From positions 4,792,501-4,856,500 of the forward strand of contig NC_019676.1 in the NCBI RefSeq assembly GCF_000316625.1: a stretch of DNA of 64,000 nt, read 5' to 3'. The notes beneath the pieces were generated by a model that did not search any database, was not told the origin of the DNA, and saw only the letters and a list, made by a program, of their open reading frames with translations. The position numbers and the translations under genes are program-made. The stretch's first letter is position 1. Each line of letters opens with the position of its first letter. This document shows positions 26,445 through 32,373 of the stretch, piece by piece. The stretch is from Nostoc sp. PCC 7107. GTDB lineage: Bacteria > Cyanobacteriota > Cyanobacteriia > Cyanobacteriales > Nostocaceae.

Positions 26445-26476
26445 AAAAAATGCAGAGGTTCGCCTTTGCATTTTTT
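26445..26476 (+). terminator. Intrinsic terminator of clpB
   Basis: AAAAAATGCAGAGG pairs with CCTTTGCATTTTTT (one G-U pair) over the tetraloop TTCG and ends in six T. It lies 18 bp after the clpB stop codon. Confidence 0.92.
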
Positions 26477-26621
26477 GGTGTTGCTGATTAGTGGGATGTT
26501 TTTTGTTTCGCGCATTCGCCGCAAGGCGTTCTCGCAGAGTAGGCGCAAAGGCGCGAAAAATCGATAGTTCAATTTACTAAAAAGGCTTAATTCATCCCGC
26601 ATTTATGCAACGCCCATTTTT

Positions 26622-27050
26622 TTATGGATTATTTTCTGGTTCTGTATATTTGCAGAAAACGTTAATACCGATTTTGAGGATATACAAGACGACAATTGTG
26701 GCGATCGCGGCATCAATCGGAATACCATGAACAGCCGCTACAGTTACCAACGAACCAATAATACTATTAAGTAAAGCAGCACTACCAGGGTTTTTCGTAT
26801 ATTCTTTTATTTTGCCTTGTAGACCTTCATCGCCGCATATTTCCGCGCGAATTTCATTGAGGGTTAATTGTAAGAGAGATTTATTTTTACCAAAAGCTGT
26901 TTTACCAAATTGCTCTTGCCAAAGTTCATCAAAACTAGCTTCTAAATTACCTTTATTTTGTTGTATAGTCGTGAGTGCTTTTTGTGCCTGATCATCTTGA
27001 AGGATTTGTTGCAGTTCTTGAATTTCGGTAGAAGATAATTGAGTAGTCAT
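26622..27050 (-). CDS. Hypothetical membrane-anchored helical protein beside the RAYT transposase
   Basis: A 142-residue protein I do not recognise. The first 90 residues are soluble and helical (TEIQELQQILQDDQAQKALTTIQQNKG ... FDELWQEQFG). The last third holds two hydrophobic helices (ALLNSIIGSLVTVAAVHGIPI and AAIATIVVLYILKIGINVF) before a short polar tail. The ATG at 27050 lies one base after the stop codon of the transposase gene, so the two may be translated together. An upstream in-frame start inside the transposase gene is less likely. The coupling could be a chance insertion of the transposase gene in front of an older gene. Confidence 0.7.
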   Translation of the reverse strand: MTTQLSSTEIQELQQILQDDQAQKALTTIQQNKGNLEASFDELWQEQFGKTAFGKNKSLLQLTLNEIRAEICGDEGLQGKIKEYTKNPGSAALLNSIIGSLVTVAAVHGIPIDAAIATIVVLYILKIGINVFCKYTEPENNP

Positions 27051-27051
27051 A

Positions 27052-27474
27052 TCATGCCTCATCGTCATGCTTTTCTAAAGATGCGATCGCTGTTCCTTGA
27101 GAATGATGATTTTTTTGGTTTCTCACATAAGAAACAGCATTGTCTAACTGCTTACTACCTAATGACAATACACCATATCCGCGCTGCCAACCAAAAATAA
27201 TTGCATTATTTGATATATGATAATTTTGATTTAAAAAATGAGTGCTACTACCTTTAATATTTTTGACAAAATCAGCTATGGATAAACTAGGTGGTATTGA
27301 AGCTATTAAATGGATATGGTCTTCAATGCCGCCAATCGCATGAATAATACTATTAAGAAAATCAGCTTTCCCAATAATATAATTATAAAGTTCAGCTTCT
27401 TTATCATGCGTAATCAGAGGTTGGCGTTCTTTGGTTGCCCAAACAAGATGATAATAAAGCCGCCAAAAAGCCAT
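27052..27474 (-). CDS. REP-associated tyrosine transposase (IS200-like Y1 HUH enzyme, RAYT)
   Basis: A 140-residue single-domain HUH transposase. RLYYHLVWATKERQPLI is the N-terminal strand, GGIEDHIHLIASI contains the metal-binding H-x-H, and the nucleophilic Tyr is in NAVSYVRNQKNHH near the C-terminus. The protein has the full length of the family and no visible defect. Known RAYTs cut and rejoin single-stranded hairpin repeats (REPs) that lie next to their gene. Two copies of a multi-hairpin repeat begin 50 bp upstream of this start codon, which fits that role. No IS200/IS605 tnpB partner is present. Confidence 0.93.
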   Translation of the reverse strand: MAFWRLYYHLVWATKERQPLITHDKEAELYNYIIGKADFLNSIIHAIGGIEDHIHLIASIPPSLSIADFVKNIKGSSTHFLNQNYHISNNAIIFGWQRGYGVLSLGSKQLDNAVSYVRNQKNHHSQGTAIASLEKHDDEA

Positions 27475-27524
27475 GATATATTTTGCGGTATAAGAGATAA
27501 TTTCTCGATTGTATTTTCTTTAAA

Positions 27525-27682
27525 GTAAATCTGCCAAGTCCGCCTAGGAATTAATTCCTAGGCTCACAGCAAAAGTCCGTTGAAACGGACTTTTAATTTA
27601 TATAAATCAATTTTATTGACATCTTCATTAGTTGTCTTCAGACAACTTACGCTATGAGCCTGGGGTTTATAACCCTAGGCGG
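27525..27682. repeat. 158-bp multi-hairpin repeat, copy 1 (candidate RAYT substrate)
   Basis: The unit contains four hairpins. They are the perfect palindrome CCTAGGAATTAATTCCTAGG (27543-27562), AAAAGTCCGT/ACGGACTTTT with loop TGAA (27571-27594), GTTGTCT/AGACAAC (27631-27646), and CCTGGGGTT/AACCCTAGG (27659-27679). The outer ends CCGCCTAGG (27540) and CCTAGGCGG (27682) are themselves exact inverted repeats. GGCTCACAGC and GCTATGAGCC also pair (one wobble) and enclose the two middle hairpins, so an alternative cloverleaf fold exists. Confidence 0.92.
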
Positions 27683-27716
27683 GTATAGTCGATAGTGTAT
27701 TCTGTATTTGTTATGA

Positions 27717-27874
27717 GTAAATCTGCCAAGTCCGCCTAGGAATTAATTCCCAGGCTCACAGCAAAAGTCCGTTGAAACGGACTAATAATTTATATAAATC
27801 AATTTTATTGACATATTCATCAGTTGTCTTCAGACAACTTAAGCTATGAGCCTGGGGTTTATAACCCTAGGCGG
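27717..27874. repeat. 158-bp multi-hairpin repeat, copy 2
   Basis: A direct repeat of the unit at 27525-27682, 192 bp further on, of identical length with 6 substitutions and no gap. Two substitutions fall in loops or single-stranded stretches. The C in TTCCCAGG breaks the first palindrome slightly. The 34-bp spacer between the copies (27683-27716) is unique sequence. Confidence 0.93.
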
Positions 27875-27898
27875 ATGATTATGCTTCTCCATTAAAAC

Positions 27899-28108
27899 GT
27901 TGATTCACAACCTTATGTTGTTGGTTCACAACATTACGCCGTTAGTTCACAACCTTATGTTGTTGGTTCACAACCTTAAGCCGTTGATTCACAACCTTAC
28001 AATATTCATTCAAAACATTACAACTTTGGTTCAAAACATGACAATGTTGGTGCAGAACATTACAACTTTGGTTCAAAACATAACAACGTTGGTTCAAAAC
28101 ATGACAAC
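27899..28108. repeat. 21-bp minisatellite, ten copies
   Basis: Ten consecutive 21-bp units of the type GTTGGTTCACAACCTTATGTT show no gaps. Units 1-5 carry TTCACAAC and units 6-10 mostly TTCAAAAC, so the array has two sub-families. In the first type each unit contains GTTG...CAAC, able to pair. Because 21 is divisible by three, both strands stay open over the array; I do not regard either frame as a gene. Confidence 0.92.
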
Positions 28109-28218: not shown

Positions 28219-31200
28219 TCAGCGCCTCCGCGTGAAATAAAAAATTGCATCATACATCTCTTCAGCGTACTCTTCACCCGTTGCCTCGAAAATAGCTTGA
28301 AACTGACTTTCGCCTAACTGCTGGAGTATACGGGCTAAAGCATCGATAACATAACCAATCCAATCTTGATTATTTTCTAAGCCAATAGCGAAAAGCCGAA
28401 TGTAAATTGGCAAAGCCTCAGCGTAATTTTCTTGAGCTTCTAAAACCCTTGCCCACTTACCCAATGTTTGTGAAGCCTTACGCCAATCGCGGAATTGCTC
28501 ATAAATTTCCCAGGCTTTTTGATAATAGTTAATTGCCACATCAAACTGCCGTTGCTCTTCGGCTATCATGCCCAGTTGGTGATAGTCACCAGCAGCACTG
28601 TAAAAATCCCCGGCATCTTCGTTTATCTTCAGCGCCTTGTTGTAGTAATCAACAGCCACATCAAACTGCCTCTGCTCTTGGGCTACCATGCCCAGTTGGT
28701 GATATTCTCTAGCAGCACTGTACAAATCCCCGGCATCTTCTTTTATCTTCAGCGCCTTGTTGTAGTAATCAACAGCCACATCAAACTGCCGTTGCTCTTG
28801 GGCTACTATGCCCAGGTGGTGATATTCTCTAGCAGCACTGTACAAATCCCCAGCATCTTCTTTTATCTTCAGCGCCTTGTTGTAGTAATCAACAGCCACA
28901 TCAAACTGCCGTTGCTCTTGGGCTACCATGCCCAGTTGGTGATAGACAGTTGCAGCAGAGTAGAAATCCCCTGCATCTTCTTTTATCTTCAGCGCCTTTT
29001 TGTAGTAATCAACAGCCACATCAAACTGCCGTTGCTTATAGGCGATATTGCCCAGTTGGTGATAGTCAGTTGCAGCAGAGTAGAAATCCCCTGCATCTTC
29101 TTTTATCTTCAGCGCCTTTTTGTAGTAATCAACAGCCACATCAAACTGCCGTTGCTTTTCGGCTACCGCGCCCAGTTGGTGATAGACAGTTGCAGCATAG
29201 TAGAAATTCCCTGCATCTTCATATATCTTCAGCGTCTTTTTGTAGTAATCAACAGCCACATCAAACTGCCGTTGCTCTTGGGCTACTATGCCCAGCTGGT
29301 GATACTCACGCGCAGCCGAGTAGAAATCCCCTGCATCTTCAAAAATCTTCAGCGCCTTTTTGTAGTAATCAACAGCCACATCAAACTGCCGTTGCTCTTG
29401 GGCTACTATGCCCAGTTGGTAATAAGCAACAGCAATTCTGTCATTCACTGAAGGGTCATTTAAAGCTATCAATTCATCTAAAATTTCTTGATGAACTTTT
29501 CCCGCCCCTTCTAAATCACCACTTAGCCGCGCTTCAATAGCTTCGTTACCCCGCAAATAAATCCAGAAATCAAAAGCATCTTTACCCTTTGGTTTTGCAT
29601 CTGCCAAGTGAATGCCAATTTGCTTCAGCGCCCGTTGTTGCAGTGACTTAAATTCGGGTTTGCGCCCGATGCGCTCATACACTTCTCCCAAGGTTTGCAG
29701 AATTTCCTGTGCATAAGCCCATTCTTGTTGCTGTTCGGCAAGGCGCAGGTTTTGCAACAGGTTTGGTTCTTCGACTCGCAGCATAAAGGTTGCCAGTTCA
29801 GCATTGCTGATGAGTTTCTCGCCGTAGTTATCCGCTAAATAAGCGTAGAAAATCAGCAACTTTTTTTCGAGTTTGTTAATCACCTCTTGGGAAGCCATTG
29901 TGTTTAACTGCTGACGCAAATACCAGGGTAGTGCTGGGTGAATTTTGTAGATAGTCTCACCAAATAAATATTCCAAAATACCTGCGGCGGCAGCTTCATT
30001 GAGAATTCTTAGCCAATCTGGTTTTTGCAAGTTCTCCCCAAACACGGCTTGATAAGCTTGCCCAAATTCATTATCAGGACTTGCTGAAAACAGAGGCAGC
30101 CAATCTGCATTAACCCGTTCCGAAAACAGCGCCAAAAATGGTAAATGTCGTCGTGTACGTTCTGACAATTTAGCAAAGGAATAATCCAACGACACAGTAA
30201 GAGATTTTTCTCTCCCTTCTTCCTCTTGTCCCCTAAAAGTATCCAACCCCCGCCGCAGCGCCTCAATTAACTGCACAGGTGTCTGTGTCTTTAAATGCGG
30301 TAACACCACCCGCAAAGACAACGGATGTCCCCCCAATAATTTCAACAATTCCAAATACTCTGCTGGTAGGTTCTTTCTCTCCACACCCACCGTTTGCAAA
30401 ATCTTCGCGGCTAACTCTTGGGCATCCGCTTGAGACAACCCCCGCAAGTTGATTAAACTATACCCACAATCCAACCAAGCTTCTTCGCCGCGACTGGTAA
30501 TTAATACCCAAGATTTACCACCCCGCAATTCTTTAAGAAACCGCTTCAGCTTGTTTCTTTCTTCCCCACTCAATAATGGTTCATTCCCCGTAGGGAAACC
30601 GTTGACAGGTTCAAAGTTATCCCAAATCAACAAGCAAGGATTAGTTTGCAGATATTGCCGCACCACATCCTCTTGCTTATCTGGCATCATTTGGGAAAAT
30701 CTCTCACCTCCTAACGCCCTACCAATTTGGTTAATTACCTGACTCAACCCCGCACCCTGTTCAAAGGAGGTGAAGAACATACCGCCTGTACGTCCTTGAG
30801 TGTCATTTAACCACCGGGTGAAACCTGCGGCTAACTCAGTTTTACCAACGCCGCCCATTCCCTGCACCAAAACCAGATGATTTTGCCGAAATGCTCTCTC
30901 TAAACGCAAAATCTCATAATCCCGCCCAATAAAACCATAAGCACTTTCATCGGGTAAACCTACAGCTTTGCTGCTTTCTGGAGTGTTGTCTGTTTGCGCC
31001 ATCAAATCAGCAAAACTCGGTGCTGTCTTCTTAGGAACAAAAGGCGTATAGGGTTCCTGCTGATACAACACCGGCACAAGCCAATCTTGTAAAGCTAAAT
31101 TTCCTTTGGGACTGGGGCGCATTTTGTCAATAGACATGGACTTACGCCCTGCTGCAACTGCTGTGGCGATACACTCTCCCCTGACTAATTCCCCATACAA

Positions 31201-32145
31201 CCGCCCAATAAAGTGTTCTGCACCTTTGGCGTAAACTGAATACGCCATTGCTACCACACCCTTAGCCCCCAATTTCACCAACTGTCCCGCCACAGAAGAA
31301 AAGGCTTCTTCCCCTACTTGTCCAGACTTGCAAGCATTCAGTACAAAAATCGGCACACGACAATCTGTTAAATATTGGGCAATTTCTCTAGCGCTGACAG
31401 CTTGCTCATTTCCCTGTTCATCCTCAAAGACTAAAACTCCCTGTGTCTCGCTGTCAAAATTCCCATGTCCATCAAAATGGACGATATGATAAAAACCCTT
31501 ATTCGCTTGCAGTTCTGCTTCAAATGCTTTCAAGCTAGGGGGACGCAATACCTTAAGATTGACTCGCTGTCGTATTGGTTGCAGCGCCGCCAGCAGTGGA
31601 CGGGCAATGGTTTTAAACCCAATATCTTGCTGATCGTAAGGACGGGCAATAACTAGTAAAATATTCAGTTGGTCATCGGGCATTGCTGGCAATGGTGCTT
31701 TTACGCCCTGACTGCTGAGACTGCGATACATCCCCGCCAGTGAAGGTGCAAGAAATTGATAATCGTGGGAATATAGCAATTCCCAAGGCAAATTCAGCAC
31801 GTTGGCGTTATCAGAAATGATGCCCAGTTCACAGTTATCTAGCCCTTCTCGTGTCGCTTCCTGAAAAAACTCTCTTCCTTTGTCTGTACTGCGAAATACT
31901 AGCTCAAATAGCTGTTGTCCCCAATGCTGTAATTTTTGTTCAATTTTTACAGCGTTATCTGGAAAAATACCGTAAGGAAACTTGAGATAATCTTCTAAAT
32001 ACCAGCGCAACTCGGCTGCGTTTTCTTCATCGAAGGGTTGCTGGAAGGCGACTTCTGACGCAAAACGAGGACTTTCATATCCGCGTTGCCAAGAAAGTTG
32101 GATTTTGTCGTCTTGATGCGTAATCCGCAACCAATTTTGCGCCAT
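28219..32145 (-). CDS. CHAT protease-NB-ARC-TPR STAND protein
   Basis: A 1308-residue protein. After an N-terminal region (about 1-125) comes a caspase-like CHAT domain (about 160-365) with the catalytic pair His227 (HFDGHG) and Cys272 (LNACKSG). The NB-ARC NTPase follows, with Walker A GMGGVGKT (429-436) and LLIWDNFEPV as Walker B. After the winged-helix region the C-terminal part is eight almost identical 40-residue TPR units (EQRQFDVAVDYYKKALKI type) and a helical cap. Known proteins of this architecture sense a signal through the repeats, oligomerise on ATP and activate the protease. Translation probably starts at ATG 32145 (MAQNWLRI); an in-frame GTG lies 5 codons upstream. Its substrate is unknown. 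Small genes precede it on the same strand. Confidence 0.93.
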   Translation of the reverse strand: MAQNWLRITHQDDKIQLSWQRGYESPRFASEVAFQQPFDEENAAELRWYLEDYLKFPYGIFPDNAVKIEQKLQHWGQQLFELVFRSTDKGREFFQEATREGLDNCELGIISDNANVLNLPWELLYSHDYQFLAPSLAGMYRSLSSQGVKAPLPAMPDDQLNILLVIARPYDQQDIGFKTIARPLLAALQPIRQRVNLKVLRPPSLKAFEAELQANKGFYHIVHFDGHGNFDSETQGVLVFEDEQGNEQAVSAREIAQYLTDCRVPIFVLNACKSGQVGEEAFSSVAGQLVKLGAKGVVAMAYSVYAKGAEHFIGRLYGELVRGECIATAVAAGRKSMSIDKMRPSPKGNLALQDWLVPVLYQQEPYTPFVPKKTAPSFADLMAQTDNTPESSKAVGLPDESAYGFIGRDYEILRLERAFRQNHLVLVQGMGGVGKTELAAGFTRWLNDTQGRTGGMFFTSFEQGAGLSQVINQIGRALGGERFSQMMPDKQEDVVRQYLQTNPCLLIWDNFEPVNGFPTGNEPLLSGEERNKLKRFLKELRGGKSWVLITSRGEEAWLDCGYSLINLRGLSQADAQELAAKILQTVGVERKNLPAEYLELLKLLGGHPLSLRVVLPHLKTQTPVQLIEALRRGLDTFRGQEEEGREKSLTVSLDYSFAKLSERTRRHLPFLALFSERVNADWLPLFSASPDNEFGQAYQAVFGENLQKPDWLRILNEAAAAGILEYLFGETIYKIHPALPWYLRQQLNTMASQEVINKLEKKLLIFYAYLADNYGEKLISNAELATFMLRVEEPNLLQNLRLAEQQQEWAYAQEILQTLGEVYERIGRKPEFKSLQQRALKQIGIHLADAKPKGKDAFDFWIYLRGNEAIEARLSGDLEGAGKVHQEILDELIALNDPSVNDRIAVAYYQLGIVAQEQRQFDVAVDYYKKALKIFEDAGDFYSAAREYHQLGIVAQEQRQFDVAVDYYKKTLKIYEDAGNFYYAATVYHQLGAVAEKQRQFDVAVDYYKKALKIKEDAGDFYSAATDYHQLGNIAYKQRQFDVAVDYYKKALKIKEDAGDFYSAATVYHQLGMVAQEQRQFDVAVDYYNKALKIKEDAGDLYSAAREYHHLGIVAQEQRQFDVAVDYYNKALKIKEDAGDLYSAAREYHQLGMVAQEQRQFDVAVDYYNKALKINEDAGDFYSAAGDYHQLGMIAEEQRQFDVAINYYQKAWEIYEQFRDWRKASQTLGKWARVLEAQENYAEALPIYIRLFAIGLENNQDWIGYVIDALARILQQLGESQFQAIFEATGEEYAEEMYDAIFYFTRRR
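28501..29460. repeat. Eight 120-bp tandem repeats inside the TPR region
   Basis: Eight exact-length 120-bp units encode the 40-residue TPRs. The segment GTAGTAATCAACAGCCACAT recurs in almost every unit without change, and many synonymous sites are identical too. The central units at 28621-28980 are closest to one another. This level of DNA identity points to recent unit duplication or gene conversion. Confidence 0.92.
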
Positions 32146-32373
32146 AACGAACTCTACCACTGGTTAGTTAATCTGATGGTAACTTAACTCAGTAATTCAC
32201 GTAGAGGTCGGTTGATTACGTAAAATCGATACTATTTTGATGGTCTGTTGCCAAGCTTTTCTGGCATCAATAAATTTGATGATACTGCGCTGCGATCGCC
32301 TATCAATTTTCATTGGGGGAAGTTAAACAACTCAACTTCCCCCAGGCTTGTACAACGATAAATTGAGCAGCTT

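Follow-up and report, generated by a model that had tools for sequence, protein, structure and literature searches.

The two 158-bp repeats that lie beside a transposase gene in Nostoc sp. PCC 7107 are, we conclude with high confidence, paired double-hairpin ends of the subclass-1.2 HUH transposases, present here as tnpA-less units next to the gene. Taken as a whole, the system is probably a subclass-1.2 HUH-Y1 TnpA together with an inverted pair of double-hairpin ends, the units being non-autonomous elements of a REPIN- or PATE-like kind. In 2018, subclass 1.2 was separated as a group of IS200-like proteins with neither IS ends nor REPs, which left its role open; the present finding gives the whole subclass a defined candidate DNA substrate and a link to dispersed cyanobacterial repeats. 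Positions are those of the window, the whole 64,000-nucleotide stretch of this genome that was analyzed, unless a genome or another locus is named.

The transposase gene and its hairpin repeats

The repeat pair occupies 27525-27682 and 27717-27874, the copies differing by 6 substitutions and 0 gaps, and 50 bp separate the first repeat (27525) from the transposase start (27474), as a sequence-only reading of this DNA had described. The four hairpins per repeat, the outer inverted ends CCGCCTAGG and CCTAGGCGG and the complementary pair GGCTCACAGC and GCTATGAGCC that it had reported are likewise present. Each repeat has a palindromic core of 143 bp, unit 1 (27540-27682) and unit 2 (27732-27874), with covariance model scores of 121 and 122 bits, respectively, and support from fold tests and pair counts. 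On the forward strand of unit 1, the outer hairpin hp1 (27544-27561, from alignment and pair counts) is followed by a linker of the general form GGCTAnnnGC-AAA (27562-27573), conserved among aligned halves, and then, from pair counts, by the inner hairpins hp2 AGTCCGTTGAAACGGACT (27574-27591), which is followed by TTTT, and hp3 AGTTGTCTTCAGACAACT (27630-27647) and the outer hairpin hp4 (27660-27678). Alignment and pair counts place the corresponding forward-strand hairpins of unit 2 at 27736-27753 (outer, hp1), 27766-27783 and 27822-27839 (inner, hp2 and hp3), and 27852-27870 (outer, hp4). Tandem Repeats Finder reports a period of 192 bp, 1.8 copies and 96% match across both units, and the two arose by a 192-bp tandem duplication (27524-27874).

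The adjoining tnpA gene (27052-27474, reverse strand) encodes a 140-aa HUH-Y1 transposase. It matches Y1_Tnp (Pfam PF01797) with 95 bits against a cut-off of 23 and passes the NCBIfam IS200/IS605 model NF033573 with 83.7 bits against 55, and its nearest solved structures by sequence are the TnpAs of ISDra2 and ISHp608. It had earlier been called a RAYT, a label of which the IS200/RAYT superfamily stands and the RAYT itself does not: the RAYT model NF047646, whose cut-off is 80 bits, gave 23.3, and the Y---NP signature, which defines the RAYT catalytic motif in PMC6006769, is absent, with YVRNQKNHH in its place. The motifs DHIH, WQ and YVRNQKNHH correspond to the subclass-1.2 set (DH[IV]H, WQ, Y---Q--HH), the residues H53, H55, W96-Q97, Y116, Q120 and H123-H124 are all intact, and the length compares with about 148 aa typical of the subclass. 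The genome carries one intact and one broken subclass-1.2 tnpA, the latter at genome positions 5486079-5486475 and flanked on either side by a four-hairpin unit that belongs to another sequence family. The dN/dS values of 0.08 and 0.18 against the orthologues in Nostoc LEGE 06077 (G007) and Nostoc TH1S01 (G008) point to purifying selection on tnpA although it is single-copy.

The same place in these two relatives holds three units, one of them degenerate, beside a 99% identical TnpA in LEGE 06077, and two units beside a 94% identical TnpA in TH1S01. All three loci lack a half 3' of tnpA. A small conserved ORF lies there (26622-27053, reverse strand), beginning at the tnpA end and overlapping its 3' end in all three genomes; its product of about 143 aa has a hydrophobic C-terminus, is 91% identical in both relatives and has no Pfam or NCBIfam match. 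A site downstream of this ORF is empty in LEGE 06077 (L023 2531-2540), contains an element of about 210 bp with four hairpins in TH1S01 (L024 4471-4728) and a different insert of about 140 bp in the window (26476-26617), and looks like an insertion hot spot. Beyond unit 2, a 21-bp tandem repeat of about 10 copies (27890-28108) precedes a large gene (28219-32160) that, judged from its own sequence, appears to encode a CHAT/NTPase/TPR protein and that contains a 120-bp DNA-level repeat of 7.4 copies (28535-29424). Short tandem arrays also adjoin other subclass-1.2 tnpA loci (14-15 bp at L057/L108, short units at L086, and L084).

Folded as single-stranded DNA and compared with dinucleotide shuffles, the units reach z scores of −7.1 (unit 1) and −8.5 (unit 2), and folded as RNA −8.2 and −10.3; 0 of 200 shuffles fold as well as either unit, as DNA or as RNA. 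Among 22 units of the genus, 97% of the cells in the four local hairpins are paired and 11 pairs show double changes. The covariation of the four-hairpin model is 0.260 versus 0.104 when shuffled, with compensatory changes in all four hairpins, and the pattern is repeated in the C-type family of units. The alternative cloverleaf that had been suggested for the unit fails on this comparison: its two private helices have 0 and 1 compensatory pairs, and most sequences break them at several positions (up to 17 of the 22), whereas the four local hairpins covary. The structure under selection is four local hairpins, not a cloverleaf, and the complementarity of GGCTCAYAGC and GCTRTGAGCC results from the same linker being present in both halves in inverted orientation.

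Paired ends at subclass-1.2 loci

Subclass 1.2 has been described as generally lacking the terminal structures of IS200 and the properties of an IS, as occurring mostly in Cyanobacteria and Bacteroidetes, and with no REPs listed (Quentin et al. 2018, PMC6006769). A class-wide search of 194 genomes yielded 41 subclass-1.2 genes, spread over 31 of them, and these loci, along with loci collected earlier, provided a first set of 50 flanking regions. The detector relied on structure only, with two hairpins and a linker making a half and two halves being required to have inversely complementary linkers, in flanks of 400 bp. Inverted double-hairpin pairs were detected at 35 of the 50 loci, compared with 0.75 for shuffled flanks and 1 positive among 36 distal windows; stricter versions of the detector had given 18/50 and 24/50 on this set. 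The settings, loosened once, were left unchanged for a second set of 72 further loci from a second collection scan, Chloroflexota included, and 53 of these were positive (shuffles, 1; distal windows, 4/62). A few positives look spurious (L095, L219, L243 and L249), and in many first-set negatives one half or more can be seen on inspection.

The gene lies between the halves in 29 of the 35 positives of the first set and 46 of the 53 of the second. With both sets pooled, four-hairpin ends are found at 88/122 loci and tnpA sits between ends at 75/122. Since tnpA is usually located between two ends, the four-hairpin unit corresponds to that end pair without the gene. The published absence of ends in subclass 1.2 (PMC6006769) looks wrong, and a partial literature search turned up no paper reporting such ends for the subclass.

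The aligned halves follow a common grammar: the outer hairpin is followed by GGCTA and a linker, nearly constant in length and ending in AA, and then by an inner hairpin of about 18 nt. Preceding the outer hairpin is TGAGCC in the window units and often GTAGCC in the C-type relatives. At three loci of Chloroflexota transposase relatives (L263, L267 and L283), the double-hairpin plan of the ends is kept with sequences of their own. One locus (L073 873-2464, in G188) has about 10 C-type four-hairpin units in tandem with a period of 164 bp beside a subclass-1.2 tnpA. In 5 Nostocaceae genomes, the C-type tnpA lies directly upstream of what reads as a DndD/SMC-like ATPase gene (L051, L052, L058, L059 and L072).

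The sequences of the ends track those of the transposases. TnpA identity and half-unit similarity are correlated (Mantel r = 0.85, p 0.0005), a correlation that comes partly from shared descent because ends and gene travel together. Where two divergent TnpAs occur in one genome, such as L073/L094 in G188 and L072/L088 in G139, they have separate end families, each matching that of the nearest TnpA elsewhere.

Dispersed units and competing explanations

A BLAST search of the window genome with the full unit returned only the two local copies, which by itself would have spoken against dispersal; the covariance model then recovered more units, for a total of 11 strong places, with 2 at the locus, 2 at the broken paralogue and 7 elsewhere. 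A strict detector run on an evenly spaced 400-kb sample plus the window found 1 unit, the one in the window, so units are sparse in this genome. In the relatives, where the rows of matches were halved because the near-palindromic unit matches both strands, LEGE 06077 and TH1S01 contain at least 75 units each. A-type units number about 20 in each of two genomes without this tnpA (G003 and G005) and are fewer in the remaining genomes. The two unit-richest genomes, LEGE 06077 and TH1S01, carry this tnpA, as does G000, but the latter has few units; G000 does have many C-type units, yet a search for an intact C-type tnpA there gave none. Of the 31 genomes that have a subclass-1.2 tnpA, 18 contain C-type units, as against 32 of the 163 that lack one (Fisher p 2.8e-5, with phylogeny ignored), and genomes at the maximum number of C-type matches listed make up 11/31 and 5/163 of these groups. 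Units are also present in genomes where the matching tnpA went undetected.

The general claim of the sequence-only reading, a four-hairpin unit longer than usual beside its transposase, is borne out, and the unit is associated with the gene and dispersed elsewhere. On the two outcomes it had set against itself, namely a unit found nowhere else or mainly in genomes without the RAYT, the picture is mixed and not refuting: by BLAST the unit is confined to this locus and by covariance model it is not, and the association with the transposase is seen in the C-type counts alongside unit-bearing genomes with no detected tnpA.

In the CHAT-TPR gene of LEGE 06077, a four-hairpin unit lies in frame (L023:5742-5869) and adds about 40 residues, and the window orthologue is without it; TH1S01 keeps a single outer hairpin at this site, and the window sequence differs around it. 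This comparison indicates gain or loss of a unit, with no clean boundary. In none of the three regions compared did we find a clean empty site that gave the unit boundaries exactly; nested insertions or rearrangement obscured all three.

In the genus, the majority of the dispersed A-type copies that were examined sit inside an element of about 210 bp with outer inverted repeats GGTGTACACACAA of its own, and it is on account of these repeats that such copies may have been spread by another, second transposase. The units could then be regarded as the mere interior of a conventional MITE, with a DDE transposase acting on GGTGTACACACAA and the four hairpins carried as passengers, and the arms are indeed conserved between copies. 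This explanation is unlikely, as the window units have no GGTGTACACACAA arms, other arm-less copies exist (L023:5742-5869 and L035; L180 and L181 in the window genome itself; and all C-type units seen), and what flanks tnpA at 88/122 loci is four-hairpin ends, not outer repeats.

We also regard it as improbable that the locus is a remnant in which a tnpA with no present activity adjoins decayed ends duplicated by slippage. The 192-bp tandem period is compatible with slippage, one of the three units in LEGE 06077 is degenerate and the 3' side of the window tnpA has no half, but the gene is intact, with dN/dS of 0.08-0.18 and all catalytic residues, and units in three genomes have kept all four hairpins. 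Far less plausible still is a structured RNA ahead of tnpA, be it a small RNA, an attenuator or a terminator cluster, with the tandem copies serving dosage or regulation. The very stable RNA folds, the TTTT after hp2 of unit 1 and the compensatory changes, which suit RNA and DNA equally, would fit such an RNA; weighing against it, both strands of the near-palindromic unit score, most relatives have halves to either side of tnpA, units are dispersed away from tnpA, and Rfam has no family at gathering threshold for the units, only sub-threshold matches to Acido-Lenti-1.

A candidate mechanism and comparison with known systems

If the repeats are the ends of subclass-1.2 transposases, the DNA partner of TnpA would be two inverted ends, each made of an outer hairpin, GGCTA..GC, AAA and an inner hairpin. 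In most relatives these ends flank tnpA, so that the whole resembles an IS about 0.55 kb long, and the four-hairpin unit would be two ends joined without tnpA, a non-autonomous element. Once the locus is single-stranded, as may happen on the template of the lagging strand, the hairpins could fold, and TnpA could bind them, cut beside the outer hairpin through its tyrosine and carry the unit along in single-stranded form. Either strand might serve as substrate, the unit being near-palindromic. We infer the binding, cleavage, excision and insertion of units by TnpA, with single-strand cleavage and transfer at the outer hairpins deduced from the transposase family and the anatomy of the ends. At the window locus, tnpA no longer lies between ends, and the gene is vertically kept with adjacent units in a REPtron-like arrangement.

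More tentatively, subclass 1.2 could represent a third Y1 working mode beside the one-hairpin IS200/IS605 and REP/RAYT modes. Its ends might be mirror-image composites, in which two hairpins and a linker of fixed length are read as a unit, with either strand as substrate, and its enzyme might spread tnpA-less four-hairpin units in cyanobacteria and Chloroflexota. With these findings the REP/REPIN theme, a single-strand transposase together with paired palindromes, also reaches the IS200 side of the superfamily, and the co-varying families of TnpAs and ends are good material on hairpin recognition by HUH enzymes.

The window TnpA shares all the signatures, the length, the low copy number and the cyanobacterial distribution of the subclass-1.2 TnpA_Y1 proteins of PMC6006769; the subclass as published has no terminal structures, whereas paired ends are present at most loci here, and, unlike in that account, in some Chloroflexota too. 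The GTAG-15 dimers that lie inside long palindromes in cyanobacteria (PMC3733652) resemble the units as paired palindromes that are embedded, in heterocystous cyanobacteria, in a larger palindromic tract. Their consensus tract differs, and they were not linked to subclass 1.2.

The IS200/IS605 elements (IS608 and ISDra2, TnpA subclass 1.1) are similar in having an HUH-Y1 TnpA, the nearest solved structures, and hairpins near both ends, with tnpA between the ends as in most of the relatives here. They differ in having one subterminal hairpin per end versus two here; each end described here is the inverted copy of the other, the motif is Y---Q--HH, and tnpA copies are few per genome (in the window genome, one and a broken paralogue). 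One hairpin per end with tnpA in between, the arrangement that defines an IS200/IS605 element, is not what the window locus contains. Such elements are also characterized by excising and inserting as single strands beside a fixed tetra- or pentanucleotide. PATEs are tnpA-less IS200/IS605 derivatives of haloarchaea. Like them, the units are non-autonomous and combine both ends of an element of the IS200/IS605 type; unlike them, they are four-hairpin, near-palindromic, bacterial and associated with subclass 1.2.

With REPs, REPINs and their RAYTs (TnpA_REP, class 2), the units share an inverted palindrome pair forming one dispersed non-autonomous unit, as in a REPIN, one transposase gene per unit family, clustering of units at the gene as in a REPtron and, often in the C-type, GTAG just 5' of the outer hairpin. 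The differences are a class 1 rather than class 2 transposase, two hairpins per half, tnpA between the halves in most relatives, and GAG rather than GTAG in the window unit: a REP has GTAG/GTGG within 0-2 nt 5' of its one hairpin, and the window units have TGAGCC before the outer hairpin. The system would thus work much like both REPIN/RAYT and IS200/IS605, yet each of these has defining features that are absent here, and we therefore class it as a variant of these known systems.
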